Shown one piece after another: positions 4,435 to 28,290 of a stretch of DNA of 34,308 nucleotides (position 1 is the stretch's first letter; each line of letters opens with the position of its first letter). Position numbers and translations under genes: made by a program. The notes under the pieces are model-generated. The model was not told the origin of the DNA, did not search any database, and saw nothing but the letters and a program-made list of their open reading frames with translations. The stretch comes from a virus. The stretch spans positions 1 to 34,308 of the IMG/VR virus record IMGVR_UViG_3300024979_000015; one strand, given 5' to 3'.

Positions 4435-6582
4435 TCAATACCACTTATTATTGTTGATTAGTTGAGTATATCCGCTATTATATGGCGTAGCACTGCCCAT
4501 ATTATTTAAATATTGTTGTTGCTGATAATTTTGCAAGCCGCTTGTGAGTGCATTTCCTACGCCCTGGATACCGCTCGATACTGCATTTGCATTAGCTATT
4601 TGTCCCTGCGCTCTCGCTTGTGCAGAATCATTAGCTCCCTGTGCTCTTGCATTGCCTATAGCTTGTAAATTATTTCCGACAGTGCTACCGTAATTAGTTG
4701 CCGCATTAGCTAAGTTTGATCCAGTACCGTATTGGTATCCTGCTTGCTGGCCTGCGGCCTGTTGCCCTATCCCTGCCATAGCCGCTAGACGATTAAATGT
4801 ATTTGTTCTATCTCCTGTCCAATTGTTTCTGGAATTTTGATATACGCTAGCCGCATTTGATCTATCATTGCCAAATCGATTATAAGCATTCATCAGCTCA
4901 CCGCTCAAATTAGCACGATTAGCGCCAAATTGATTATATGCGGTATCTGTTCGACCGGCTAGATTAGCCCTATTAGCCCCAAATTGATTATAAGCATTCA
5001 TGGCTTCATTGCTTAGATTTGATCTATTTGAGCCGAATCTATTAAATGCTGAAGTAAGGCTATTATTTAAATCGGCTCTATTTGCATTAAATGCTACCTG
5101 TGCATTATTTAAAGCATTACCTGCTTGTTGCTGAGTTGATTGGAATCGATTAAATGCATTGCCATATTCTTGCGATGCTTGATCACTATTATATTTTGCG
5201 ATTGCTTTTAATGTTGCTCCGCTCAATAATCCACCACTAGCAGCGGCACTATTGTTTATACCTCTATTACCCTCGTCCAACCTAAATTGGTAGCCTGGAT
5301 CAGCTTGATAGTCAGATAATTTAAACCCTCTCGCTAAATCTGCCTCATTAAATCCAGCTGCCCTTAGATAATTTGATCTATTAAAATCCCTTGATAGATC
5401 CCCTGTATTATGCCCACCGGCCTGTAAAAATGCCTCCTGATTAAAATCCTCTGTTAAAGCGCGAGGGCCTCTACCCATGGAGGCTAGCCAAGCAGATTGA
5501 TCAAAATTTTTGATTAGCTCTCTTGGATCAATTCCTTGGGATTGCAACCATGCCGACTGATCAAAATTATCAGTTAATGCAGTTGGAGAGTTGCTTTGCG
5601 ATGTCGAGATTACATTCAGTCGGCGATTAATATCTGATATTGGCAATCCTGTTGCAGCAGCCAATTGCTGTACCGATACGCCATTATCACGCATCGCTTT
5701 AGCTATTTCTGCATCGCTTGCTCCTTGATGATTTGCTAGCCAGCCTTTTATATCATCAGTGCTAAAATTATTATTTTGCTGATTATAATCATATGCAGAT
5801 CTTCCTTGTGATTTTAGCCAAGCAGCTTGATCAAAATTTCTGGATAGATCTTGGGGCTCATTACCACCGCTTGTAGGATCATTTATATAATCTTGTGCCG
5901 AAAATCCACGGTATAAATCCCCTCCATTATCTCCTGCATAAGCATCTTGTGCAGTTTGTCCTGGATCATATGGACGAGCATTTGCCTCCATTACAGCCTG
6001 ATTTGCTAATCTCTGCCGTTGCTCAATTTTAGATAGCTCTCCCGATAAATCTTTGCTAGCCTGATCCCATCCAACATTATTTTGATGCTGTTCAAATTTT
6101 GAATTAAAATCAGATCTGGCGTTATTTGCCGCTTGCTGTTCGGCCATTATTTTAGCCAATGTATTCGCGTCTGTACCACTTGCTGCTCTACCGGCAATGG
6201 CTCCATGAGAAGCTATAGGTGAATGAGTTAATGCCGTAAGCTGTCCCAGCGCTCCAGCTCCTACATTTGCGTATGGTTGCAATGTTGCTGTAGACTGCTG
6301 TAATCCTGATTTTAAAAATCCCTGGCTTTCATCGTATGCGCTTTTTGCAACCTCATTAGCCCTTATCATTGCGGCTTCTTGCTCTTTCGCCGCCTGATCT
6401 GCTGCTATTGCTTGAGTTTTTGCCGCACCTTTAGCCGCTTTGCCTTGCTGTGATGCTGATACCCCTTGAGCAATAGCTCCTGCTGCTGCTGCTGCTACCG
6501 CTACTGCCGCACCTGCCGATATCCCTGCTATATAAAGTGGACACCCGGTAAAAATCCACCAAAAAAACTTAAACAATCGCAT
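4435..6582 (-). CDS. DNA transfer / ejection protein with internal repeats
   Basis: 715 residues from the ATG at 6582, chosen because AGG lies eight bases upstream; a GTG three codons earlier is possible. The N-terminus has hydrophobic and Ala-rich segments (about 3-45) that could insert in a membrane. Two repeat families fill the rest: units of about 20 residues around FDQSAWLxSQG (about 245-415) and units of about 14 residues around NAYNQFGANRANL (about 490-580). A conserved block with YQADPGYQFRLDEG and GGLLSGATLKA lies between them; such blocks are typical of podovirus ejection proteins. It probably forms part of the channel carrying DNA across the envelope. The gene overlaps the end of the cupin gene. 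Confidence 0.75.
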   Translation of the reverse strand: MRLFKFFWWIFTGCPLYIAGISAGAAVAVAAAAAGAIAQGVSASQQGKAAKGAAKTQAIAADQAAKEQEAAMIRANEVAKSAYDESQGFLKSGLQQSTATLQPYANVGAGALGQLTALTHSPIASHGAIAGRAASGTDANTLAKIMAEQQAANNARSDFNSKFEQHQNNVGWDQASKDLSGELSKIEQRQRLANQAVMEANARPYDPGQTAQDAYAGDNGGDLYRGFSAQDYINDPTSGGNEPQDLSRNFDQAAWLKSQGRSAYDYNQQNNNFSTDDIKGWLANHQGASDAEIAKAMRDNGVSVQQLAAATGLPISDINRRLNVISTSQSNSPTALTDNFDQSAWLQSQGIDPRELIKNFDQSAWLASMGRGPRALTEDFNQEAFLQAGGHNTGDLSRDFNRSNYLRAAGFNEADLARGFKLSDYQADPGYQFRLDEGNRGINNSAAASGGLLSGATLKAIAKYNSDQASQEYGNAFNRFQSTQQQAGNALNNAQVAFNANRADLNNSLTSAFNRFGSNRSNLSNEAMNAYNQFGANRANLAGRTDTAYNQFGANRANLSGELMNAYNRFGNDRSNAASVYQNSRNNWTGDRTNTFNRLAAMAGIGQQAAGQQAGYQYGTGSNLANAATNYGSTVGNNLQAIGNARAQGANDSAQARAQGQIANANAVSSGIQGVGNALTSGLQNYQQQQYLNNMGSATPYNSGYTQLINNNKWY

Positions 6583-14509: not shown

Positions 14510-16363
14510 TTATAATCCTCGTACTTTTAAATCATTATCAATATATTCAGTCATTTTTTTAATTAAATACTCTCGACCTACAAATGATGGGTGTGATCCA
14601 TCTGCGCCAATATAAAAATCAGCATTACCAGTTCCAGTTGTCGCCCCCCATAGACCAGTACCTGTAATCCATGAAATCGTAGAATGATATTCTGATTTTT
14701 CATAATTCCATTTATTAAATTCTTCTTGTAATGCCGTATCAAGAGCAGTAGTTGTTGCTCCTGGCCCTGAATTTTCGCTCCAAGGCCCGAATATGATAAT
14801 TATAGCATTTGGATACCTTTTTGCTACATTTTTCCAGCAAGATAAGGCATTTGCAACAACATCTGAAATAGTTAGAGTTATATCATTAAGTCCGTGCCCA
14901 AAAACAATTACATTCGGATTATAATCATAATAATTTTCTTGCAGCACCCCTAGGCAGTTATATTTTGTAGAAGTTGTATTATTATCAGATGATTTTTTAC
15001 CATTTAAGTAGCCTGTACCGCCTATTTGCAAATGTGATACTGCTCTAATTCCTGATCTTACAAATACCTCTCCTCCCAAATCGCGCATACCCATTGGAGT
15101 AGTATATGTCGAAATTGTATTTCCATAACTATCGCCCAAGTACAGCCCCCTAAGAGCATTATAATTTAATGGCAATAAAACACTTTGAGGCAGAAGAGAT
15201 AATCCGCGAATAACTGTAGAACAAGCGACCTCTATAATATATTTCCTTAGTTTTCTTACGCCTGACCAATCTATTGAGTAATATGAAGTACCAGAGCCAG
15301 TAAATAATGTGTTTGCTTCTTCAATGTCATAGCCATCGACTTCAACTAAAACCCTAACTGACGATGATGCCCCAGATATTACAATGGCTGGTTTTGGGTC
15401 ATCTGTTATAAATCCGAAAGTAAACGTACCTGATTGAATTACGGTTCCTGAGCCCCCAATATTTAGATTAAATCCGGCAATTGTTGTTGATGTTGCATTT
15501 GTCAAAGCATTTGATAATTGACTTATTATCGCATTGCTTGGGTCTTGAAGAATGTTTGTTATGGTATATGAAAAACTTGAGCCGGATCCGCCAAGTGATG
15601 TATTTGGTATAGTTAAAATATCACCAACAATATATCCAGTTCCAGACCCGCTCTCAAACTTTGTAATTGCTGAGACTGCTCCGCCTGAAACAGTAACAGA
15701 TAAAGCTTTTGCTCCTGAACCTGAGCCACCAGTGAAACTAACATTGCTATATATCCCATCTATATATCCTGAACCACCTGATATTGTCCCACTGTATAAT
15801 TTTCCTGGTAATGAAGGGTCAACAACAAGTCTTATTGCGGAGCCTGCCGGCGCTGTTTGATTTCCTGTTATGGTTGGTGCTGAATAGGAGCCGTCAGGGG
15901 CATAAGATGAATATCCTAGATAAGCCCATGCCGGCCCTGCTGCTTCTTGTATAAGTGCGGTTGCAGAAAAGGTTGGCTCTGATGCAAGTGAAGTTGCTCC
16001 TGCTGCTATGCTTACGCATACCATCATTTCACCATTTGAATGATGAACAACTGCTCCAACAGCATAAACAGTTAAAGCCGCCCATGCAGGAGCTCGAATT
16101 AACGATCTTTTCTCATAATCACGTTTAAATCTTGATCTATAAACTGATATATCAGTATCATTTATTCTATTATTTGCAATAGATGATCCAATTGCAATTG
16201 CTTCAGATGGTCTTATATTTTTTACATATAGCCAGACATTATTTTTTCTTTCATATACGTTTCCAGTATCAGTTTCATTGAAAATGGAGCCATTAACTAT
16301 GGTAGTTGTTATTGTTGCTCTTTCAGAATTTTTTCCAGAATATATCAGACCATCTATATACAT
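14510..16363 (-). CDS. SGNH/GDSL-hydrolase appendage protein
   Basis: 617 residues. The N-terminal two thirds contain a Trp/Tyr carbohydrate-module-like stretch (APAWAALTVYAVGAVVHHSNG, about 92-111) and Gly/Ser-rich repeats (GSGYIDGIYSNVSFTGGSGSG and GTGYIVGDILTIP), as in phage fibre shafts. The C-terminal third is an SGNH hydrolase: GDS at 410-412 (Ser412 nucleophile), FGHGLND at 488-494 (Asn), and DGSH at 588-591 (Asp/His). Such domains usually remove acetyl groups from surface sugars. It sits between portal and scaffold, an unusual place for a receptor-active protein. Confidence 0.78.
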   Translation of the reverse strand: MYIDGLIYSGKNSERATITTTIVNGSIFNETDTGNVYERKNNVWLYVKNIRPSEAIAIGSSIANNRINDTDISVYRSRFKRDYEKRSLIRAPAWAALTVYAVGAVVHHSNGEMMVCVSIAAGATSLASEPTFSATALIQEAAGPAWAYLGYSSYAPDGSYSAPTITGNQTAPAGSAIRLVVDPSLPGKLYSGTISGGSGYIDGIYSNVSFTGGSGSGAKALSVTVSGGAVSAITKFESGSGTGYIVGDILTIPNTSLGGSGSSFSYTITNILQDPSNAIISQLSNALTNATSTTIAGFNLNIGGSGTVIQSGTFTFGFITDDPKPAIVISGASSSVRVLVEVDGYDIEEANTLFTGSGTSYYSIDWSGVRKLRKYIIEVACSTVIRGLSLLPQSVLLPLNYNALRGLYLGDSYGNTISTYTTPMGMRDLGGEVFVRSGIRAVSHLQIGGTGYLNGKKSSDNNTTSTKYNCLGVLQENYYDYNPNVIVFGHGLNDITLTISDVVANALSCWKNVAKRYPNAIIIIFGPWSENSGPGATTTALDTALQEEFNKWNYEKSEYHSTISWITGTGLWGATTGTGNADFYIGADGSHPSFVGREYLIKKMTEYIDNDLKVRGL

Positions 16364-16365
16364 TT

Positions 16366-18381
16366 TTATCTACCTTGTAGTGATTGTGCTTCTCTTGTCA
16401 TCTCGGCATTTTCTGCGGCTGTATTTGGTGTAGCCAAATCATCAAGTGCCTGCAGTGAAACTGCATGTGCTTGTGCTGGGGATAATATAGGCATTACTAC
16501 TTTAAGTCTATCTGTTTCCGCCTTATATCTGTCAAGATCTTTTTTCTCAAGCTCCTCGGACATTTTTTGTATCGCAATATCCATAGCTTTTATCTGTGAT
16601 TCCTGCTGCTGTAATTGCTGCTCAAATTCTGGCGGTATTTTTTTATTACCTATTTCATTATCTTCTACCAACCCAGGAGGCATAGCTTTTCTTGATCTTT
16701 CAGCAAATTCATCTGCAAAAGGCCAATCTTGTGCCTTTGCAATAATATCTCCGTGAGTTTGCCACAATCCAGGATTAGCTTGCAACATTGCAATCATGCC
16801 GTCGCTAGCCTCAGCTCTCTTAGTCGCATAATTTGCTCCGCTGGCTGCAACCACATCGTACCTGCCGACCGATAGATTATAGATATTTTTTATTTCCCCG
16901 GTTAAATTATCTTCTTTCTCGATGTGCGCTTGAGGCTGATCTGGATCAATAATTACTTTATCTTCTACGCCATCATCGCCTAGCATCCGTACAATTCTTG
17001 CAGTATCGTAAATTTTTGGGATCAAATCAATTAGTATCATAGCAGTGTATCGACGGGCATTATCGGCACTATCAGTAAAGTGATATGTAGCATTATCTCC
17101 CTTACGCTGCAAAGATAGCAATGCACGCCCAGATTGTTGATTAGCATTTTCGCCTAATTGAGCATCGTATTGCCCGCTTGCCGCTTGCATTTCGTCGCTA
17201 GCAATTTGCATGCCCTGGATATAAGCTTGTGCCATTGTTGGCGGCTGTGCTCGCTGAGGAGCAGGGAGAGGATTGCCTTCACTATCAAGATGATTGAATG
17301 GTAAAAATGCGTGTGTATCGGTATTTGCGGTTTCCCAAAAATCTTCATATCCGGCAAATGTTTCCGCCGCCCCAACCCAAGGAGTCTTACCTTGAGCGGC
17401 AACAAAAGCAGCTGCGCTTGATGTCCAAAAATTGTACATTCGTTGGGGATCTTTCATCCATCGCGTGTGGCCTTTACGTATTACTTTGCCATCTATGATT
17501 TTTTCTTCGCCGACAACTCTGATGATAGGTATGTACTTTCCTGGCCAGACTTTTTCTTCAATTATTTTATCTCCTGCTATCAAGCACCATCTTATCTCTT
17601 TGCGTGTAACTTTTCGTACATGCTGAGTCTTATCGATTAAATCCTTATTCTCGATCTTTGACAGCAATACTAAATTACCACCACCTTGATCTACTAACTG
17701 ATCTGATTTTTCCTCGATGTAAAACCATTCGCAAAGCCTAACTTTATCTTTTGACGACCACCCGCCCTCAATATCTCCCCAGTTATCGCTTTTGTTTTTT
17801 ACTTCCGGGTATTTTTCTTCGAATAAGTCAACATCCATATCCTCAAATATAAATGCGCCAAGTGCGTCGCTGCCATCAGATTTTTTATTACCATAAATGA
17901 ATACGTTTAGTGGATTTTCTATCTGATCAATATAGATTTCTTGATCGTTGCTGGATTCATCTACATAATCTGTAGTAATTCTCCAATAGCCTAAGCCAGC
18001 GTCAACTGCAAACTCAAAGGCTTGCCCGTAGGCTATATCTGCGCAAGATTGTGATTCTATATGACGGATGATGCCGTTGAATATTTCGGCTGTTTCCTTG
18101 TCCGCGCCTCCGTCAACAGGCAATACTCTTGGAGATGCACGATTCTTACGAGCATCATTCGTGATTTGTAAATTGTGTTGCTTGATTTTATTGATAGTCA
18201 AAATAGGAAGTTTTGACGTTTTGCGATTTTTTATTTGATCATCATCCCATTGATACTGATTGTCAGAGTCGCCATTAGCAAAGCGCAAATCCTCGCGCCA
18301 AAGCCTACGGTTTTCCGATTCTTCTTCTTCGCATTTAGCAAATATTTTATGTGCTTTTTTTATCAAATCTTTATCTTTCAT
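16366..18381 (-). CDS. Portal protein, P22-like
   Basis: 671 residues (P22 portal about 725). The opening has a charged helix, then LRFANGDSDNQYQWDDDQIKNR, PILTINKIKQHNLQITND and RKNRASPRVLPVDG, the typical start of P22-type portals. A central AASGQYDAQLGENANQQSGRAL motif and the C-terminal Gln-rich coiled coil (about 580-620) fit as well. It forms the twelve-subunit ring through which terminase pumps DNA. It follows large terminase, as expected. Confidence 0.88.
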   Translation of the reverse strand: MKDKDLIKKAHKIFAKCEEEESENRRLWREDLRFANGDSDNQYQWDDDQIKNRKTSKLPILTINKIKQHNLQITNDARKNRASPRVLPVDGGADKETAEIFNGIIRHIESQSCADIAYGQAFEFAVDAGLGYWRITTDYVDESSNDQEIYIDQIENPLNVFIYGNKKSDGSDALGAFIFEDMDVDLFEEKYPEVKNKSDNWGDIEGGWSSKDKVRLCEWFYIEEKSDQLVDQGGGNLVLLSKIENKDLIDKTQHVRKVTRKEIRWCLIAGDKIIEEKVWPGKYIPIIRVVGEEKIIDGKVIRKGHTRWMKDPQRMYNFWTSSAAAFVAAQGKTPWVGAAETFAGYEDFWETANTDTHAFLPFNHLDSEGNPLPAPQRAQPPTMAQAYIQGMQIASDEMQAASGQYDAQLGENANQQSGRALLSLQRKGDNATYHFTDSADNARRYTAMILIDLIPKIYDTARIVRMLGDDGVEDKVIIDPDQPQAHIEKEDNLTGEIKNIYNLSVGRYDVVAASGANYATKRAEASDGMIAMLQANPGLWQTHGDIIAKAQDWPFADEFAERSRKAMPPGLVEDNEIGNKKIPPEFEQQLQQQESQIKAMDIAIQKMSEELEKKDLDRYKAETDRLKVVMPILSPAQAHAVSLQALDDLATPNTAAENAEMTREAQSLQGR

Positions 18382-18435
18382 CGCTTATAAGTACTGATGT
18401 GATTAATAAAAAAGTAGCACAAAAATACATAATTA

Positions 18436-19677
18436 TTAACCCATCCATGAATTTAATCCTGATGATAGCCTTGTACTTGTCTTTGCCTTAAGCTTTGGAA
18501 TCTTATTTGCTGCTGCTCTTCTTGCCCCTTCCAAAGCATATCTGCAAGCATCGATGACGTGATTGTCCTTATCCGCAAGGAGCGGGAGTATGTCGCCTGT
18601 CAGTGGGTCGATTTTATAGCTGTACAGCGATAGCTCATCGATAGTGTGCGTGCAGCGCGGATGAACTACAATATCAAAGCTTTTCAAAAACTCTACCCCT
18701 TCTTCAAGGCTTTTAGGGCCTTTAATTGCTGATCTGATATGAGGAAAGCCATTCTTTTGCATGTGGCTTATAGTTTCCGGCCTAGCGCTATCAGCTGTGA
18801 TAGGCCATTTTTCAGACTCAGGGACTTGCATAAATAACTCTGGAAGATTCACAATCTCACATCCAATCTTGTACGCTTCATAATCGATGTAAAGTATATT
18901 CCCTTCAATAGAGCACCTCACTAAAACTGAAGGATCTACACTAAATCCCCAATCTGCTCCAAGTCGATATATAGTCCCATCTGGCCTATAAAATTCTTCT
19001 ACTTTCCAGTTTTTAAAAACTCTTGCCGAAGTATTTTGTATGTATTGCCCGAGCCAAATATGCCTGTATTTGTCAGGATCACGCTGCCGATCATATTCCA
19101 TCTCGATCCTTAGCTCATTCGGAAACCATGGATTATCTGTGTAATTTGCTTCAACAACTATCGATCCTGGAGGTGGATTGTCGCTTCTTAATAGAGAATC
19201 AATAGGATCTGTCGCTTGCCCTGGATTCCAGGATGCCCAAATTTCTGACCCAGGCTTACGAAATGTAGGACGGACAATATCAAGAGACTTTTGGCTTATG
19301 TTTTGAGCCTCTTCCATCCATAGAATATCAAAGCCTTCAAGAGATTTTATAGAGTCTGAGGTGTGCGATTGAAGTCCGGTAAAAATTATCTCTGAACCGT
19401 TTTTTCCTTTTATTACTGTATCTTGAATTTCAAAAAAATGTTTAACACCATGAGCTTCTATCCGTGATTCTATTAGCCGTTTTGAAGAGTATTTTAAAGA
19501 TCTTTGAGTTTCGCGTGCGCATACTACACCAGTTTTTTTAGCCACACATAAATCTACTATGAAATCTGCAAAAAAATTTGATTTGGCAGACCCTCTGCCA
19601 CCAAATGCACCTTTATACCTTGCTGGCTTAAGGAGCGGTAAAAATACTCTAGCGGTAGGTATATCAAGAGTTGCCAT
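18436..19677 (-). CDS. terL: Terminase large subunit
   Basis: 413 residues from the ATG at 19677; a TTG four codons upstream is less likely. ATPase: Walker A GGRGSAKS at 26-33 and Walker B ILWMEE at about 118-123. The nuclease half has acidic residues in ADWGFSVDPS (Asp242), TADSARPE (Asp296) and DNHVIDACRYA (Asp376), forming the RNase H-like metal site. It powers packaging and cuts DNA when the head is full. The start overlaps the small subunit gene by 14 bases. Confidence 0.92.
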   Translation of the reverse strand: MATLDIPTARVFLPLLKPARYKGAFGGRGSAKSNFFADFIVDLCVAKKTGVVCARETQRSLKYSSKRLIESRIEAHGVKHFFEIQDTVIKGKNGSEIIFTGLQSHTSDSIKSLEGFDILWMEEAQNISQKSLDIVRPTFRKPGSEIWASWNPGQATDPIDSLLRSDNPPPGSIVVEANYTDNPWFPNELRIEMEYDRQRDPDKYRHIWLGQYIQNTSARVFKNWKVEEFYRPDGTIYRLGADWGFSVDPSVLVRCSIEGNILYIDYEAYKIGCEIVNLPELFMQVPESEKWPITADSARPETISHMQKNGFPHIRSAIKGPKSLEEGVEFLKSFDIVVHPRCTHTIDELSLYSYKIDPLTGDILPLLADKDNHVIDACRYALEGARRAAANKIPKLKAKTSTRLSSGLNSWMG

Positions 19678-20023
19678 TGGCAGGATCAATTATCGTGCGC
19701 TTTATTTCAGTAATTTCGACAGATCCGGCATGCTCAATAATACTCGTATCCTTCCACCCTGCCTGACACTTTAGATAAAATATAGTAGCCGCGGTATTTC
19801 CTTCTTCTGACTGCAATATCAAACTTTTTGCCCTTCCTTCTATTGCTTTTGCCTTACCTTTTTTATAATGTAAAGCGACTTCTGGCTGCCTCTCCATTAT
19901 TGCATAAAATGTCGGCCTTGATATGCCTAGATAATCTGATATTTGCTCAATATTTAAGTAAGAAGCAAGCGCTTCTACTTGGGATATTTGCTTATCAGTT
20001 AAAATCATTCCTGACTTAGCCAT
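19664..20023 (-). CDS. terS: Terminase small subunit
   Basis: 119 residues from the ATG at 20023, which has AGGGA just upstream; a longer frame exists but would overlap the previous gene deeply. MILTDKQISQVEALASYL and DYLGISRPTFYAIM form a helix-turn-helix, followed by HYKKGKAKAIEGRAKSL and the oligomerisation segment AATIFYLKCQAGWKD. This is the usual layout of the family that recognises the pac site. It overlaps both neighbours. Confidence 0.82.
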   Translation of the reverse strand: MAKSGMILTDKQISQVEALASYLNIEQISDYLGISRPTFYAIMERQPEVALHYKKGKAKAIEGRAKSLILQSEEGNTAATIFYLKCQAGWKDTSIIEHAGSVEITEIKRTIIDPANGNS

Positions 20024-20243
20024 GTATAATCCCTTTGCTTTGTAGCCAAATGTATCCTCCGGTGATAGTAGCAATTAAAATCCAGATAAATTTTTGAGTT
20101 AAGTTTTTTCCGATCTCTTTGTAAATGTAATCACGCATTTTTTCAATTGCCTTTTCGCTTGCAGATTCTGCTATCTCATCTATCTGCTCTTTACTTAAGC
20201 AAATTGACTTCCTCCTCTCCTCACGGCCATTCCACTGATCCAT
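20016..20243 (-). CDS. Small single-span membrane protein
   Basis: 75 residues. After WNGREERRKS there is an amphipathic helix (about 18-50), then one membrane segment (FIWILIATITGGYIWL, about 52-67) and a short tail. Proteins of this shape are common before terminase genes; some are suspected holins or anti-holins. With no other holin visible, that is possible, but not shown. Confidence 0.55.
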   Translation of the reverse strand: MDQWNGREERRKSICLSKEQIDEIAESASEKAIEKMRDYIYKEIGKNLTQKFIWILIATITGGYIWLQSKGIIHG

Positions 20244-20316
20244 ATAAAAATATTTCGCCTAAAATTAAAAAAAATTGTATACGATATTAAAAATATAACG
20301 CTAGACGACTGCTTAA

Positions 20317-20457
20317 TCAAGCCTTATTCTGATGATAAATTTTAATATCATCATCAGATCCAACTCCATTTTTAACTCTCATACGCAAAGCGTTTATCTT
20401 TTTTGCCCTACGCCCTTCTATCCATGTGGCTAATAATTGCGCTAAATGCTCTTTCAT
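20317..20457 (-). CDS. Small unknown protein overlapping the kinase gene
   Basis: 46 residues beginning MKEHLAQLLATWIEGRRAKK. The first 50 bases lie inside the end of the kinase gene in another frame, and GAGAA precedes the ATG. The rest occupies the gap before the membrane protein, which supports true coding. Unknown role; basic and helical in the first half. Confidence 0.5.
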   Translation of the reverse strand: MKEHLAQLLATWIEGRRAKKINALRMRVKNGVGSDDDIKIYHQNKA

Positions 20458-20947
20458 ATAAGTTCTCTAAATTGCCATTATTTTCTATTTTAGCATCATT
20501 TTTAGATGGTATAAAATTTATTTCGCTTTCGTGCCTATCTATGCTATACGAGTATTCTCTCGATATATAAATAATTAATCCGCCACGATCCCTTATCATC
20601 TCAGCTTCATTTTGAAATCGTACATCATCGATTACAATATTTTCATGATCATAATCTAATCTTTTAGACATAAGCTTAATCCAAATATCATGGCATAATA
20701 ATTTTCTACCCCATTCCGTTCCGAGAGTTTGCAAAATGTGCCGGTAAGAATTTCTGCACGGCTCAATAAAAGAATCCTTATCTATCTCTATAGAATCAAA
20801 ATCTATATCATAATCATCTAGCATTGAGCGAACCATTTTTTTTATTGGATCTGCAAAGCTATAACGATAATATTTATTCTTATCAATCAGCATTTTTGCC
20901 AATGAACTTTTACCTGATCCTTTTTTTCCTGCCAATCCTACGATCAT
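20408..20947 (-). CDS. Deoxynucleoside monophosphate kinase
   Basis: 179 residues. P-loop GKKGSGKSS at 7-15, then YSFADPIKKMV, HILQTLGTEWGRK and the Walker B-like ENIVIDDVRFQNEAEMI. This matches phage dNMP kinases related to T4 gene 1, which phosphorylate dNMPs for DNA synthesis. Its ATG overlaps the stop of the preceding tiny gene. Lying next to packaging genes is common for this enzyme in small phages. Confidence 0.82.
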   Translation of the reverse strand: MIVGLAGKKGSGKSSLAKMLIDKNKYYRYSFADPIKKMVRSMLDDYDIDFDSIEIDKDSFIEPCRNSYRHILQTLGTEWGRKLLCHDIWIKLMSKRLDYDHENIVIDDVRFQNEAEMIRDRGGLIIYISREYSYSIDRHESEINFIPSKNDAKIENNGNLENLYERAFSAIISHMDRRA

Positions 20948-21024
20948 ACGTAAGATATCAATATTGATAGAGTTGTTATTGCCGCTATAGACAAATAAAT
21001 CGATAAAATTATCATGCCTTTCAT
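20944..21024 (-). CDS. Tiny membrane peptide (26 residues)
   Basis: The frame MKGMIILSIYLSIAAITTLS... is almost entirely one membrane helix. Its start overlaps the previous stop and its stop overlaps the kinase start (ATGA on both sides), so it is probably translated. Role unknown; a lysis-timing or membrane-disturbing peptide is possible. Confidence 0.45.
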   Translation of the reverse strand: MKGMIILSIYLSIAAITTLSILISYV

Positions 21025-21164
21025 TTTTTATCCTCTAAACTATCTCTCAATTGGCGTAATAAATTTGTCCATGACTCAATTCCTTTATGTGAATATATCA
21101 TTTTATTAATCTCAGAAAGTATAAATTCTCTCTCATCTTTCCTTCCTTGTTCGTATTTTTTCAT
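21021..21164 (-). CDS. Small unknown protein (47 residues)
   Basis: Starts MKKYEQGRKDEREFILSEIN. The ATG overlaps the preceding stop (ATGA) and its stop overlaps the next start. Helical and charged, with no recognised motif. Confidence 0.5.
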   Translation of the reverse strand: MKKYEQGRKDEREFILSEINKMIYSHKGIESWTNLLRQLRDSLEDKK

Positions 21165-21364
21165 CTTATAATCCCCAAATTTTTTAAATATCTATTAGCT
21201 TTTACACTTGGCAATATTGCCAATCCACTGTGATCATTTAATCCTGCAATATACGCATTTCGTACATCATCGATTCCAACTTTCTTTTTGTAAAATTTCT
21301 CCCATGCTGTTCCTTTCCAAGTGCGGAATCTTCCTGATTGATCTCTTGGTATACTTTCAATCAT
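21161..21364 (-). CDS. Small unknown protein (67 residues)
   Basis: Opens MIESIPRDQSGRFRTWKGTAWEKFY, with a basic aromatic first half; the second half includes DVRNAYIAGLNDHSG. It lies just after the XRE-like regulator and overlaps the next gene. Not recognised. Confidence 0.5.
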   Translation of the reverse strand: MIESIPRDQSGRFRTWKGTAWEKFYKKKVGIDDVRNAYIAGLNDHSGLAILPSVKANRYLKNLGIIR

Positions 21365-21370
21365 ATATTT

Positions 21371-21562
21371 TTATATCCCTTTATCCTTAAAATTAGTTTT
21401 TATACAAAAAAGCTCAAAAAAAGCTGGATGCATTTCCCTTCTACCTCGCTCCCATTTTTGCCAAGCGCCAAACGAGCAATGAATTAGATTCGCTGCCTGA
21501 GTTTGTGTTAGATTCGCATCCATGCGGGCTTTTTTAATATCAGAAGTTGATGGCTTAATCAT
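21371..21562 (-). CDS. XRE-like helix-turn-helix regulator
   Basis: 63 residues from the ATG at 21562, overlapping the preceding stop as ATGA. KARMDANLTQTQAANLIHCS gives helices 1-3 of an XRE fold, and FGAWQKWERGRREMHPAFFELF completes it, close to small phage and prophage regulators of this length. It is the second gene after a promoter with a palindromic operator (21849-21865), so it may control its own operon. It is too short for a CI-type repressor with a separate dimer domain. Confidence 0.72.
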   Translation of the reverse strand: MIKPSTSDIKKARMDANLTQTQAANLIHCSFGAWQKWERGRREMHPAFFELFCIKTNFKDKGI

Positions 21563-21795
21563 CTGCAATTATAATCAACTATATCTCTTATAGACATTTC
21601 AGAATCTGAATCATCTTCAAAACATTTTTTTGCTTGTTCAACAAAATCTTTTATTTTTACATTTTTAAATGCCAATACACCTGTATTATTTATCCATTTA
21701 ATAAATGGGGATTTTATTGAAATGCTACCATCTTTATGATTAATTAATAAATATTTAGTATTGTAAATTCCGCATGTTGTTTCGATAGTTTTCAT
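21559..21795 (-). CDS. Unknown protein, first gene of the late operon
   Basis: 78 residues starting MKTIETTCGIYNTKYLLINH. Beta-rich first half, helical and acidic end (AKKCFEDDSDSEMS). It is the first gene after the strong operator-bearing promoter, with GGAGA before the ATG. Not recognised; an early switch role is possible from position. Confidence 0.5.
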   Translation of the reverse strand: MKTIETTCGIYNTKYLLINHKDGSISIKSPFIKWINNTGVLAFKNVKIKDFVEQAKKCFEDDSDSEMSIRDIVDYNCR

Positions 21796-21844
21796 TTTTT
21801 ATCTCCGGTTTGTGGGGAAGGGAATCCTCTCCACTTGCTAAAAG

Positions 21845-21872
21845 ATTATACTCCCATTGGGAGTAATGTCAA
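21845..21872 (-). promoter_or_regulatory. Sigma70 promoter with palindromic operator between -35 and -10
   Basis: The -35 TTGACA (21867-21872) and -10 TATAAT (21845-21850) are both perfect consensus, 16 bases apart. The spacer contains the 17-bp palindrome TACTCCCATTGGGAGTA (21849-21865), which reaches into the -10. A bound repressor would block polymerase. It should drive the genes from 21795 down into the late module. The small XRE-like gene downstream is the obvious candidate repressor (inference). Confidence 0.75.
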
Positions 21873-21921
21873 CAAATTAATTATATATTTGCAAAAAAAA
21901 AGGAGAGTATTAATGAATTAG

Positions 21922-22143
21922 TTAGGAGTTAGCAATAACTTTTTCTGAACGCTTTCTAAATTCGTAAATACTTAGTTCTAATTTGCTAAAGTTTTCCGAT
22001 ACCGATGCTTCTGCATTATCTATATCTTCATCATTTTCTATGTATATAGCATGTTGCAGCCTATCAACTGATAGCAAAAATAATTCAGCTTTTTTAGCCA
22101 TATATTCAGCAAATTGAATTGCTATTTTCTCATCAGTTATCAT
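21922..22143 (-). CDS. Small helical unknown protein (73 residues)
   Basis: Starts MITDEKIAIQFAEYMAKKAE; almost all helix, acidic in the middle, basic near the end. It is the last gene of the replication block, after RusA. A 9-base T tract lies some 30 bases beyond its stop but without a clear hairpin. Not recognised. Confidence 0.5.
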   Translation of the reverse strand: MITDEKIAIQFAEYMAKKAELFLLSVDRLQHAIYIENDEDIDNAEASVSENFSKLELSIYEFRKRSEKVIANS

Positions 22144-22171
22144 TTTTTAATCTCCAAATCTAATATTGCGA

Positions 22172-22528
22172 TCAACCTGAGCGGGGGATTATGGATACTT
22201 CAATTATTCCATTTTTTACTATTTTTTCATTTAAATTAGCGGCAATCACAAAGCAATGATCATCTACTTTTATTGCATCTGCAATACCATCTAACCCATT
22301 TTTAATAGATGCTATCAAATTATCAATATCTCTACGCCTCTTATCCGGAGCATAAAAGTCTATGTGTACATCTATCTTTTTTGAGTTTACCTCTACTAGC
22401 CCTGCATTTTTTGCCAAAAAAAAGCAGTCTGCTTTATATTTTTTTGCGCTCTTTGCCTTTTTAGCCCAATGCACACGAGAGTTTGGGCTTAAGTATTTAG
22501 GAGGCCATGGTATTTTTATTTTCAACAT
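22172..22528 (-). CDS. rusA: RusA-family Holliday junction resolvase
   Basis: 118 residues from the ATG at 22528, which overlaps the SSB stop (TGATG). PWPPKYLSPNSRVHW near the start, then IDFYAPDKRRRDIDNLIASIKNGLDG with the acidic metal ligands, and AIKVDDHCF with another Asp, as in RusA (about 120 residues). It cuts four-way junctions made during recombination-dependent replication, which fits the ERF protein encoded on the other strand. Confidence 0.88.
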   Translation of the reverse strand: MLKIKIPWPPKYLSPNSRVHWAKKAKSAKKYKADCFFLAKNAGLVEVNSKKIDVHIDFYAPDKRRRDIDNLIASIKNGLDGIADAIKVDDHCFVIAANLNEKIVKNGIIEVSIIPRSG

Positions 22529-22920
22529 CAAAAAGGCAAGTCATCATTAAAATTGTCCTGGCTCGTATTTTGTATTTTACTTCTTTCTACAGGCTTAGGA
22601 GCTGATGATCCTCCAGCGAATTCAATATTTATAATCTTTCCAACCATTTTGAACCCCTGGCCACCTTCTCTCTTTTCATAAATTTCGATGTGCGGATCTC
22701 CAATAATTACGCTTAACTGAGTACCTTTAACTAAATATTGTGCTAAATTTTCTGCTTGCTTACCCCATAATGATGATTCTATCCACTGAGATTCTCTACT
22801 CCCATCAGATCCCTTTCTTCCGTAATTAAATGCCAAAGCCAGAGATGCTACCACACCACCATCCTGTAAATTTCTTAATTCTGCATCACGTCCTAGCCGT
22901 GCAATTCCTGTTAGTATCAT
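22528..22920 (-). CDS. ssb: Single-stranded DNA-binding protein
   Basis: 130 residues. The OB-fold shows in MILTGIARLGRDAELR, VASLALAFNYGRKGSDG and SQWIESSLWGKQAENLAQYL, and the protein ends DDLPF, the acidic tip that recruits partner proteins. It coats ssDNA at the fork. Encoded between a replication-module protein and RusA. Confidence 0.92.
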   Translation of the reverse strand: MILTGIARLGRDAELRNLQDGGVVASLALAFNYGRKGSDGSRESQWIESSLWGKQAENLAQYLVKGTQLSVIIGDPHIEIYEKREGGQGFKMVGKIINIEFAGGSSAPKPVERSKIQNTSQDNFNDDLPF

Positions 22921-25808: not shown

Positions 25809-25826
25809 AATAGGTGCCTAATTAGC

Positions 25827-25833
25827 GTTATAC
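25827..25833 (+). other. Left boundary core site GTTATAC of the attC array
   Basis: An exact integron core heptamer overlapping the stop of the DUF1653-like gene. Left of it only TGCCTAATTAGC resembles an L' arm; no matching second half was found. It may be the insertion point or the remnant of another attC. Confidence 0.6.
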
Positions 25834-26013
25834 ATCATCAGTAATCAGTGTGAATTTCTGCTCGAATTCTTCAACTTCTCGCACAAAAATGTCATGCTCG
25901 TTGTCGTCCTTGCAGTAAACAACAACACCCGTCCCATCGCGAGAATTTGTGCAATCCGTCGCGTATGCCAAATGCCGGTAAATATTTCCAGTTTTATTGT
26001 GCCTAAATCTCAT
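25828..26013 (-). CDS. DUF1653-like small protein (cassette gene 1)
   Basis: 61 residues: RFRHNKTGNIYRHLAYATDC, DGTGVVVYCKDD and IFVREVEEFEQKF follow the DUF1653 pattern (YRHxKTGxxYxVL, then VVY and VRxxxxF), a small beta protein of unknown role in phages and bacteria. It starts 15 bases after attC1 in transcription order. Its stop TAA is supplied by the GTTATAC core on its other side. Confidence 0.65.
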   Translation of the reverse strand: MRFRHNKTGNIYRHLAYATDCTNSRDGTGVVVYCKDDNEHDIFVREVEEFEQKFTLITDDV

Positions 26014-26027
26014 AAATTCCTCAAAAT

Positions 26028-26115
26028 GTATAACCCGTCGCTCAAGCAGAGCGCAGCCCTAGTGCCGTGTGTTTATTTACTTTCATCTGTGCGCCTGCTT
26101 AGCTTTGCGTTATAC
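26028..26115 (+). other. attC-like recombination site 1
   Basis: R'' GTATAAC (26028-26034), 5-base spacer, L'' GCTCAAGCAG; then L' CTGCTTAGC, 5-base spacer, R' GTTATAC (26109-26115). The arms pair except for an extra C in L'' and an extra A after AAGCAG, the two extrahelical positions that set attC polarity (G and T on the minus strand). Top strand is plus. Confidence 0.85.
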
Positions 26116-26117
26116 AC

Positions 26118-26291
26118 CTAATAGGTATCTATTAATGTGTTTAAATATTCTTCATTTTCCTGCATAACTAATTCACCTAATGCTACCATTGGCGTTAATC
26201 CAAACCCTGCTGGAGATTCTTGAATATTTGTAAATTCTTCATTTACAGCACACCATAAATCACCATCTTTAAAAACCTTATATTCTTTCAT
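26118..26291 (-). CDS. Small phage protein (57 residues, cassette gene 2)
   Basis: Starts MKEYKVFKDGDLWCAVNEEF and contains NIQESPAGFGLTPMVALGEL, a pattern common in short phage proteins of unknown role (KDGDxWCA ... ESPAGFG.TP..AL..L). AAGGA lies eight bases before the ATG. It lies alone between attC1 and attC2. Confidence 0.65.
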   Translation of the reverse strand: MKEYKVFKDGDLWCAVNEEFTNIQESPAGFGLTPMVALGELVMQENEEYLNTLIDTY

Positions 26292-26313
26292 GTTTTTATC
26301 CTTGCATTAAAAA

Positions 26314-26408
26314 GTATAACTCTTAGTTCAAGCGGAAAAGCCGCCCGAAGCTCGTTTGTTTGTTAAAGTTCTGTGCCAAGCGTCTTTCCGCTTAACACGG
26401 CGTTAGAC
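26314..26408 (+). other. attC-like recombination site 2
   Basis: R'' GTATAAC, L'' GTTCAAGCGG, L' CCGCTTAAC and R' GTTAGAC. The arms form a stem of about 17 bp with the same extra C and A as the other sites and a loop of about 38 bases. It is almost identical to attC3; a T in GCGTCTTTCC (G in attC3) breaks one stem pair. Confidence 0.9.
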
Positions 26409-26618
26409 ACCATGTCTCGGCCCTTTATATGCGTAATCCCAACGGATCAATCCGCGTTTGTGGTCGGTTTCGGCATCATCACCGATAACGGCTCTATTAC
26501 AGCGTGGGCATTTGGTTTCGTTGTTGCATATTGCCGTCTTGCAGCACTTAGTAAACATTGTGCTATTAGTCGGCGAACAAAGAAAAACTCCAGATTTGTA
26601 CCCTTCGTTTATATACAT
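26403..26618 (-). CDS. Small zinc-binding protein (71 residues, cassette gene 3)
   Basis: Starts MYINEGYKSGVFLC. Cys residues in FLC, KCCKTAIC and CPRC, with the His of ETDHKRG, could hold one or two zinc ions. GGGGA lies eight bases before the ATG. The stop lies inside the R' core of attC2. Partner unknown. Confidence 0.6.
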   Translation of the reverse strand: MYINEGYKSGVFLCSPTNSTMFTKCCKTAICNNETKCPRCNRAVIGDDAETDHKRGLIRWDYAYKGPRHGV

Positions 26619-26633
26619 TATTTATCCCCAGTT

Positions 26634-26728
26634 GTCTAACTCTTAGTTCAAGCGGAAAAGCCGCCCGAAGCTCGTTTGTTTGTTAAAGTTCTGTGCCAAG
26701 CGGCTTTCCGCTTAACACGGCGTTATAC
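26634..26728 (+). other. attC-like recombination site 3
   Basis: R'' GTCTAAC, L'' GTTCAAGCGG, L' CCGCTTAAC and R' GTTATAC; 95 bases, a near copy of attC2. The arms AAGCGG(A)AAAGCCGC and GCGGCTTTCCGCTT pair fully apart from the two unpaired bases, the best-preserved site in the array. Confidence 0.92.
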
Positions 26729-26732
26729 GCCA

Positions 26733-26951
26733 TCAATAAAATTTTTCTGCGGAACTAATAAGCGACATTAATCCGCCAATACTTTTAAATGATTGATGTA
26801 CCTCAACTTCGCTTCCATCATCAAATTTAAAAACCATTGTCCTGGTAAATCCTGTAATATTCCTATGCCCAAAAACATCTTTTCTATCCAAAGGGTTAAA
26901 ATTGCGCATTTTTACACCATGTACTTCGTATGCTGATTCTGCTTTAGACAT
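26733..26951 (-). CDS. Unknown small protein (72 residues, cassette gene 4)
   Basis: Starts MSKAESAYEVHGVKMRNFN; then TRTMVFKFDDGSEVEVHQSF suggests a beta hairpin, with a short helical end. Not recognised. It lies alone between attC3 and attC4, and its stop is four bases from the attC3 core. Confidence 0.55.
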   Translation of the reverse strand: MSKAESAYEVHGVKMRNFNPLDRKDVFGHRNITGFTRTMVFKFDDGSEVEVHQSFKSIGGLMSLISSAEKFY

Positions 26952-26956
26952 TGTTA

Positions 26957-27712
26957 TTACCGTGTATAACCCGTCATTAAACCAGACCCGCCGCCACAGT
27001 CCGGTTTGTTATTAAAACCCACTGGCGGCGGGCTGGTTAATTGTGCGTTAGCGGTATCGTACCCAAATATATCATTCTGCTTTGTAGCCTCTTCAATCCG
27101 GCGGCAGGCTATATCAAAATATTTAGATTCTCGCTCAATTCCGGTAAATATCTTGCCCATATTTATAGCCGCCACACCGGTTGTCCCGCTCCCCATAAAT
27201 GGATCAAATACAGTTTTTGCTTCTTGAGCATGAGTTAAACACCATTCCATAATTGGCACAGGCTTTTGTGTTGGGTGTTCACGCAATTCTTTTTTCTTCA
27301 TATTTTCTTGAAGCATTCCATTCCATCGCCACTTTTTCAATCTAACTGCTTTTTTTAAGTTTGTCCAAGCCAATTCAGCGTCAGCAAAATCTCCCGTATT
27401 GTCTTTATCCCAAACCAAAAAGCAGCTTGTTGGTGGCAAGTAAAAATAATTTCCGCCAAAAATTATCTGTGTTGTGCTTTTTTCAAGCATCAACCCAAAA
27501 AGCCAAGCTGGTGGTGGTTGATTATCCCAATCATCGTTTCCAAAATCTCTTGCTGGGATGTTTTTTTGGCCGCGTTTTTTATTTTTTCCTGAAGATTCCC
27601 CAATCCCATACGGCGGATCGGTCAAAATCAAATCGCAATTAGGCAATATCGGCAATATCTCTCTGCAATCTCCAAGGTAAAGCGTTGCACTTCCTATCGT
27701 TTCAATTCTCAT
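26957..27712 (-). CDS. DNA methyltransferase, beta-class order (cassette gene 5)
   Basis: 251 residues. Motif IV DPPY at 32-35, PTQKP at about 147-151 and motif I FDPFMGSG at 169-176. The order IV then I is typical of beta-class N6-adenine or N4-cytosine enzymes; DPPY is usual in both. The recognition domain would lie between them. It could protect phage DNA from host restriction; no restriction partner is visible. Residues from about 220 on are encoded by attC4, giving a Pro/Gly-rich tail. The start is 15 bases from attC5. Confidence 0.85.
   Translation of the reverse strand: MRIETIGSATLYLGDCREILPILPNCDLILTDPPYGIGESSGKNKKRGQKNIPARDFGNDDWDNQPPPAWLFGLMLEKSTTQIIFGGNYFYLPPTSCFLVWDKDNTGDFADAELAWTNLKKAVRLKKWRWNGMLQENMKKKELREHPTQKPVPIMEWCLTHAQEAKTVFDPFMGSGTTGVAAINMGKIFTGIERESKYFDIACRRIEEATKQNDIFGYDTANAQLTSPPPVGFNNKPDCGGGSGLMTGYTR
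26964..27053 (+). other. attC-like recombination site 4, partly coding
   Basis: R'' GTATAAC, L'' ATTAAACCAG, L' CTGGTTAAT and R' GTTAGCG. The arms run on through CCCGCCGCC/GGCGGCGGG. One extra A in L'' and one after CCAG take the places of the usual extra C and A. R' departs from GTTRRRY at its end. The site is read through by the methyltransferase gene. Confidence 0.8.
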
Positions 27713-27727
27713 TCGTGTAATATCTCA

Positions 27728-27787
27728 TGTTAATAGGTCGCTCAAGCCGACTTCGCTAACGCTACGCGGCTTAGCTCTGCATTATAC
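27728..27787 (+). other. attC-like recombination site 5, short
   Basis: L'' GCTCAAGCCG (27740-27749), L' CGGCTTAGC (27767-27775) and R' ATTATAC (27781-27787), with the standard 5-base spacers and the extra C and A. The R'' box (TGTTAAT) is poor, so this site may be weak or dead. Confidence 0.7.
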
Positions 27788-27985
27788 CGCATCATGCCAT
27801 CCAGGATTCGGCGCAACATCTGGAATCTTGACCTGTCTATTTCCGCATCTTGAGCATTCCCTGGACGGTAGGAAATATTGCCTAGCCTCTTTGTAATCAT
27901 GTCCAGAAAGCTTGCACAAAATCGGCATAACAAGTCGGTCAAGAAGATGCCTTAAAGCTCTGCGGTATTTTTTAAAATTCATCAT
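27782..27985 (-). CDS. DUF1660-like zinc protein (cassette gene 6)
   Basis: The conserved part is MPILCKLSGHDYKEARQYFL, then CSRCGNRQV: the CKLxGH...CxxCG pattern of DUF1660 phage proteins, with Cys and His for one zinc. The start is uncertain. The ATG at 27985 has GAGG upstream but would put about 19 extra residues inside attC6; the ATG at 27928, inside the R'' core, gives 48 residues and matches the family better. The stop lies in the attC5 core. Confidence 0.6.
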   Translation of the reverse strand: MMNFKKYRRALRHLLDRLVMPILCKLSGHDYKEARQYFLPSRECSRCGNRQVKIPDVAPNPGWHDAV

Positions 27986-28011
27986 GGCACTGCTTACCTC
28001 GTGCGTTATAC
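27925..28011 (+). other. attC-like recombination site 6, right end of array
   Basis: R'' GCATAAC, L'' GGTCAAGAAG, L' CTGCTTACC, a 6-base spacer, and R' GTTATAC (28005-28011). Extra C and extra A as in the others. R' carries the stop of the flanking 94-residue gene. No further site was found to the right. Confidence 0.82.
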
Positions 28012-28290
28012 CCATAAACTGTCAGCCATGTCTTTCATATTGGTTTTTAGATTGGCTATTGCTTTTTCTGCATCTTCACCTTTACCGGTCGAGTAGTTAT
28101 CATGGAATTTCTTGTGGAATGGGTTGTAGTCGCAAGCTGCAAATTCTTTCTCACTCATGTTTGTTACGCCCATAAGGGAAAATCCACAGCGGGCCTCAAA
28201 TGATCCGTCGTCATGCTGTTTAACATGCACAGGAGTTGTGCTAGCTATTCCCATATTGCTGCACTGGTAAATTACTGTTTTTTCAGTCAT
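28006..28290 (-). CDS. Unknown protein flanking the array (94 residues)
   Basis: Starts MTEKTVIYQCSNMGIASTTP, with FEARCGFSLMGVTNMSEKEF. Not recognised. Its stop TAA is part of the attC6 R' core, but no attC lies upstream of its start, so it is either backbone or a former cassette. Overlaps the previous gene as ATGA. Confidence 0.55.
   Translation of the reverse strand: MTEKTVIYQCSNMGIASTTPVHVKQHDDGSFEARCGFSLMGVTNMSEKEFAACDYNPFHKKFHDNYSTGKGEDAEKAIANLKTNMKDMADSLWV

Follow-up and report, generated by a model that had tools for sequence, protein, structure and literature searches.

Integron attC sites with antisense cassette genes in a P22-like phage contig and in other phages

Integrons are well-known bacterial platforms for gene shuffling. 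Clusters of attC sites lacking an integrase (CALINs) are also known from phages, as is their recombination by IntI1: Qi et al. 2023 (PMC9892861) described 17 phage CALINs, in virulent phages, and IntI1 was active on five of the six sites tested, the bottom strand of PH101 being recombined as efficiently as attCaadA7. The main text of that study does not mention antisense genes, and shows neither a shared leader nor the exchange of cassettes between phages. The published CALINs of Pseudoalteromonas phage PH101 and of Caudoviricetes MW202573 resemble the locus described here, in that they are attC arrays without intI, carry methyltransferase cargo and, in our own scan, are reversed in polarity. 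MW202573 is a P22-like phage, and its terminase is 62% identical to that of the window. It was deposited as Myoviridae, yet has P22-like podovirus portal and coat genes. Sedentary chromosomal and class 1 integrons share with the window the attC layout, single-gene cassettes and G/TT cores (the slash marks the crossover), but the window has no intI and its genes are antisense to the attC sites, an arrangement seen in 0 of the 44 bacterial loci checked. Insertion at attG (Loot et al. 2024, as cited in PMC11023631) accounts for the entry of cassettes into a genome without attI, and as cited there its target sites diverge strongly from attI and attC.

The window analysed here comprises an entire IMG/VR contig, linear and 34,308 bases long. 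It carries P22-like structural genes (terminase, portal and head closure) in addition to Rep and an Erf-like annealing protein. No tyrosine recombinase (PF00589) is encoded across the 34.3-kb contig; as the record is linear and may be incomplete, the statement that there is no integrase is limited to this contig. A megablast of the window against phage records returned zero matches. A 6.7-kb contig from another sample (IMGVR_UViG_3300024985_000031) is 99.99% identical to positions 15889-22595 of the window and does not cover the array; the phage has therefore been seen at least twice. When the right-flank gene was used as query for an empty site nothing was found, and no close relative that either has or lacks this array came to light; a strict array was absent from 83 scanned sequences, comprising 80 terminase-relative loci (many of them too short for the region) and three phage genomes.

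The attC sites and cassettes of the window

The first-pass annotation of this DNA had reported six attC-like sites on one strand of a phage genome without an integrase, and had proposed a search with an attC covariance model. Model R2 was trained on 31 attC sites with the window excluded, and was run with filters off. Exactly six matches were obtained (E = 6.8e-13 to 2.6e-5), each on the + strand and at one of the sites first reported; the best match outside the array had E = 0.17. R2 also recovers the Vibrio and Shewanella attC sites of published phage integrons and the sites of TJE1, MW202573 and PH101, and was thus considered a fair general model. It replaced an earlier model, R1 (bacteria only, with truncated loops), which dropped the R boxes of long-loop sites. 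The covariation count of R2 was not relied on, as the training sites were picked by a pairing-based motif scan and the count is therefore partly a product of construction. A stricter motif scan found three sites in the window, whereas dinucleotide-shuffled versions of it gave 0.007 on average.

Site S1 (26028-26115) gave the strongest match (64.1 bits, E = 6.8e-13) and was also recognised by its fold. It is followed by S2 at 26314-26408 (E = 2.9e-10; also the repeat D2), S3 at 26634-26728 (E = 1.7e-9), S4 at 26964-27053 (R2 match to 27052, E = 2.8e-9), which forms a strong hairpin with a bottom strand of -24.8 kcal/mol, the short site S5 at 27729-27787 (E = 2.6e-5; 2.7e-4 with R1) and S6 at 27925-28011 (E = 1.2e-9). 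The layout of boxes, 5-base spacers and arms had been read correctly in the first-pass annotation: each site consists of an R'' box, a 5-nt spacer, L'' with one extra base, L', a spacer and an R' box. The extra base in L'' lies on the + strand, as in the GTTCAAGC...GCTTAAC of an ordinary attC, so + is the top strand for all six. Two unpaired bases had been claimed for every site; when folded with DNA parameters, the canonical two-bulge bottom-strand hairpin is clearest in S1, S3 and S4 and less clean in S2, S5 and S6. With the same parameters S6 is equally stable on both strands, and the other five sites are more stable on the bottom strand. The GTTRRRY-type box claimed for all six is present in five, which have a G/TT core in R', but S5 has A/TT (ATTATAC), matching the AAT in its R'' box. 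Because A replaces G at the cleavage core, S5 may be inactive.

S2 and S3 are 96% identical across 100 nt, and their attC type was found in two further phages (G002, 92%; G001, 80%). Both resemble the Xanthomonadales-type attC sites of Lysobacter and relatives; S2 had no match in the plasmid collection. The window sites, all six with the boxes, spacers and extrahelical base of attC, are integron attC sites. Six of them lie within 2 kb with no nearby intI, and the cluster is therefore a CALIN (at least two clustered attC sites, no nearby intI). As an attC array without intI inside a phage genome it is also a phage CALIN as understood by Qi et al. 2023 (PMC9892861), whose 17 examples remove the novelty that the first-pass annotation had implied for such arrays. 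A complete integron, with intI and attI, is absent from the window contig, which may be incomplete.

Six cassettes, about 0.22-0.73 kb in size, are delimited by the cores (the core G of S4 is at 27047); each has one gene, and all six genes are on the - strand. Since the top strand of the attC sites is +, every cassette gene of the window is antisense to its attC, and none of the cassettes has the canonical form in which the ORF runs along the attC and the attC lies downstream of the gene. This opposite-strand placement was absent from the first-pass annotation. Cassette 1 encodes a 61-aa protein (25828-26013) weakly matching DUF1653 (Pfam E = 9e-5, narrowly short of the curated threshold). Cassettes 2 and 4, known from the ORF list and the coding call, encode unknown proteins of 57 aa (26118-26291) and 72 aa (26733-26951), and cassette 3 encodes a Cys-rich protein of 71 aa (26403-26618), likewise of the unknown kind. 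The 251-aa product of cassette 5 (26957-27712) is an N6/N4 DNA methyltransferase (PF01555, E = 3e-21), and cassette 6 (27782-28015, 77 aa) matches the DUF1660 'prophage protein' family (Pfam E = 1.8e-4).

The TTA of a crossover core is the stop codon at 25828, at 26403 (core of S2) and at 27782 (core of S5), and also at 28006, where the core of S6 provides the TAA of the 94-aa right-flank gene (28006-28290, - strand). The window array thus ends exactly at a gene end. The left edge is formed by a solitary core, GTTATAC at 25827, that lacks an accompanying attC; this position had been taken as the start of the array region, and is not an attC site. The core supplies no in-frame stop codon to the methyltransferase gene, whose frame continues through attC S4 (26957-27060) and gains about 33 residues past the stretch to which relatives align. 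Most of the listed relatives of this protein align only to about residues 216-231.

Gene polarity in phage and bacterial arrays

IMG/VR was searched with a degenerate attC pattern blind to gene direction, which gave 114 stretches. Gene calling relied on a codon-usage script, which agreed with most of the MW202573 annotation in the part compared. In the other attC-bearing phage loci the gene lying 3' of R' was antisense in 122 of 139 cases and sense in 17, whereas bacterial arrays subjected to the same kind of scan gave 0 antisense and 44 sense (Fisher p about 1e-28); these counts are of loci rather than contigs, and a few loci come from the same contig (for example L140, L158 and L168). The difference is retained for genes of at least 600 nt (31 antisense and 9 sense in phages, 0 and 11 in bacteria). 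For 67 antisense loci, the longest proteins encoded in the flanks match phage terminases, portals, polymerases, primases and helicases, and as they include terminase, portal, DNA polymerase and primase these loci were taken to be phages. About one sixth of loci were sense or tied. Some of the 'sense' IMG/VR loci were considered as possible host integrons, but none of them had an IntI over the cut-off and they were kept as true exceptions. Among the published CALIN phages, an R2 scan found PH101 and MW202573 to be reversed and TJE1 to be normal.

Antisense polarity therefore occurs in the window and across many phages, and we found no earlier report of it. A literature search, run without preprints and most subscription journals, returned no paper on reversed polarity, a phage leader or the exchange of attC cassettes between phages.

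Polarity also bears on whether the array could be an ordinary bacterial integron fragment that was captured by a phage and later became a stranded relic. Captured integrons are documented in phages, but those of Vibrio anguillarum phage p16 (attC +, genes mostly +) and Shewanella phage M16-3 (attC -, genes -) keep normal polarity, whereas reversal is seen in the window and in most other phage arrays. The resemblance of S2 and S3 to Xanthomonadales-type sites and the degenerate core of S5 would suit a captured fragment; the failure of S2 to match the plasmid collection would not, nor would the closest relative of the window methyltransferase (72% aa identity), which lies in another reversed phage cassette (L249, with other attC sites). 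We consider such an origin unlikely.

When loci were clustered by shared DNA, 59 of the 74 clusters were antisense and 15 were sense or tied. The same bias could in principle have arisen by a founder effect, in which a single arrival of attC antisense to a phage operon was followed by the survival of just those cassettes that read in the operon's direction, with no special pool and no advantage involved. Phage operons are long and one-directional, so that cassettes against the operon would go unexpressed, and both polarities do occur; but a bias that extends over 59 of 74 sequence clusters, whose flanking genes are diverse, requires either many founders or wide exchange. A single founding event is thus very unlikely, and if exchange between phages is frequent this account merges into that of a shared phage pool, which is set out below.

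The position of the gene ends differs in a corresponding manner. In the reversed phage cassettes the attC is just upstream of the gene, with a median of 24 nt between the start codon and the gene's own attC, and the stop codon falls exactly at the core (TAA/C) for 73 of 122 reversed genes, the next commonest offset accounting for 4 genes; the frame bias in reversed arrays is 80:13:9. Of 39 genes in bacterial arrays, 21 have their stop codon in R'', the box of the attC that lies 3' of the gene. As the positions of start and stop relative to the attC are reversed, phage and bacterial cassettes are mirror images about the gene. Overlap of the stop codon with the attC was considered as a phage-only trait, which was ruled out by the mirror case at R'' in bacteria, and for the same reason it is used as supporting evidence only.

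Inverted orientation raises the excision of Vibrio cassettes by bringing the bottom strand onto the template for lagging-strand synthesis (PMC11023631, PMC8946536). By analogy, one possible advantage of the reversed layout may be the placement of the bottom strand on that template.

Array-edge leader and integrase supply

The lone core at 25827 lies within a 16-mer leader, CTAATTAGCG/TTATAC (25818-25833, + strand). This 16-mer or its variant CTAATTAGCG/TTAKRC was found in only five IMG/VR contigs besides the window, and in the window and four of those five it borders an attC array on the 5' side. About 85 nt are common to L118 and L180, and this similarity stops at the core. Hardly any genes are common to the window and the other leader-bearing phages (L180 was left out of this comparison), and the leader as a query returned no phage match. 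In contrast to attG as cited in PMC11023631, several unrelated phages have a conserved leader at the edge of their arrays, an arrangement closer to a dedicated recipient site. We infer that the leader is a candidate attI- or attG-like recipient site. The position beside a phage tyrosine integrase gene is a usual location of accessory genes, and the arrays of L118, L180 and L116 begin there.

Seventeen of 20 array-bearing phage records had no tyrosine recombinase of any kind, and a true IntI was present in only one of 49, suggesting that the integrase normally comes from elsewhere; the integron integrase would then act in trans, presumably from the host. The reversed arrays are likely to be real substrates of it, as IntI1 acts on the bottom strand of the reversed PH101 sites. 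The single IntI, in G451, scored 268.7 bits, over the TIGR02249 cut-off, and lies at the contig end adjoining twelve attC sites with mostly reversed genes; G451 is possibly a complete phage integron. The locus of this contig (L191, G451:C1:24300-35865) also carries exonuclease VIII and several DNA methyltransferase cassettes. An IntI-like integrase 43% identical to that of G451 is encoded at 4680-5678 of Virus Rctr41k (KX853513), in which R2 found no attC.

Cassette exchange and cargo

A unit consisting of an attC and a DNA methyltransferase is common to L089 and L191 (845 nt, 89.6% identity). The homology starts at GCCTAACG and ends at CCCTAACG, both of which are G/TT cores, and the attC sites on the far side differ. 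The two contigs are otherwise nearly unrelated, L089 having tail genes and L191 the exonuclease. These relatives support the exchange of attC cassettes as units between phages, as read from their breakpoints. The first-pass annotation had suggested that accessory genes are exchanged in this way; this is supported by the L089/L191 unit, and is a proposal for the six units of the window. Among 96 cassette proteins seven match N6/N4 methyltransferases and two match Lar restriction alleviation proteins, with singletons including Dam, a C5 methylase, an Acb2/Tad1 hairpin domain and an RNA ligase; the majority are small and unknown.

The most likely explanation of these data is that phages share a pool of reverse-polarity cassettes, which would be restricted to phages and moved by an integron integrase in trans. 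For the window, we consider it probable that the array is a six-cassette CALIN of mirror-image, phage-type cassettes in a P22-like phage, recombined by an integron integrase in trans. Such a cassette comprises, in gene direction, the attC hairpin, a ribosome-binding region and one small gene whose stop often coincides with the core (TAA/C). The enzyme, provided by the host or by an element resident alongside the phage, would bring the bottom strand of an attC into its folded form and link it to a different core; through such joining cassettes would be gained, lost or reordered as units. As the cores are at gene ends and the reversed genes run along the phage operon, every junction would keep genes intact and open to expression by phage transcription, without an integron promoter. 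The cargo is enriched in DNA methyltransferases and includes other likely counter-defence genes. The fuller proposal, of a cassette economy of the phages' own that combines mirror-image cassettes, entry at an attI-like leader, counter-defence cargo, exchange between phages and integrase in trans, is made tentatively; it may well be correct, but is slightly more apt to fail in some part than to hold.

If the shared pool exists, phage counter-defence genes could be swapped as ready units between unrelated phages, a route apart from homologous mosaicism. A phage gene ending in TAA/C with an upstream attC could then in principle be excised as a new cassette, and such excisable genes would suggest a source of new cassettes; because a stop codon can double as the crossover core in the reversed layout, this bears on the open question of cassette origin.

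Least probable of all is that the hairpins are kept for a role in RNA (a 5' leader structure, RNA processing or translation control) with recombination incidental, since although the transcript carries the attC hairpin shortly before the start codon and effects of attC on translation are known in integrons (PMC8876359), the conserved details are those that IntI needs (GTTR in R', spacers of 5 nt, and an extra L'' base confined to one strand), one exact cassette is common to two phages with breakpoints at cores, and IntI1 recombines the PH101 sites (PMC9892861). The hairpins may act as RNA leaders in addition to their role in recombination.

L140 and L158 had been considered as a second exchanged unit, and were dropped as both are from one contig. 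This contig (3300020045_006155, which also includes L168) carries two copies of a 0.66-kb unit that are 86% identical, one of which starts exactly at an attC core.
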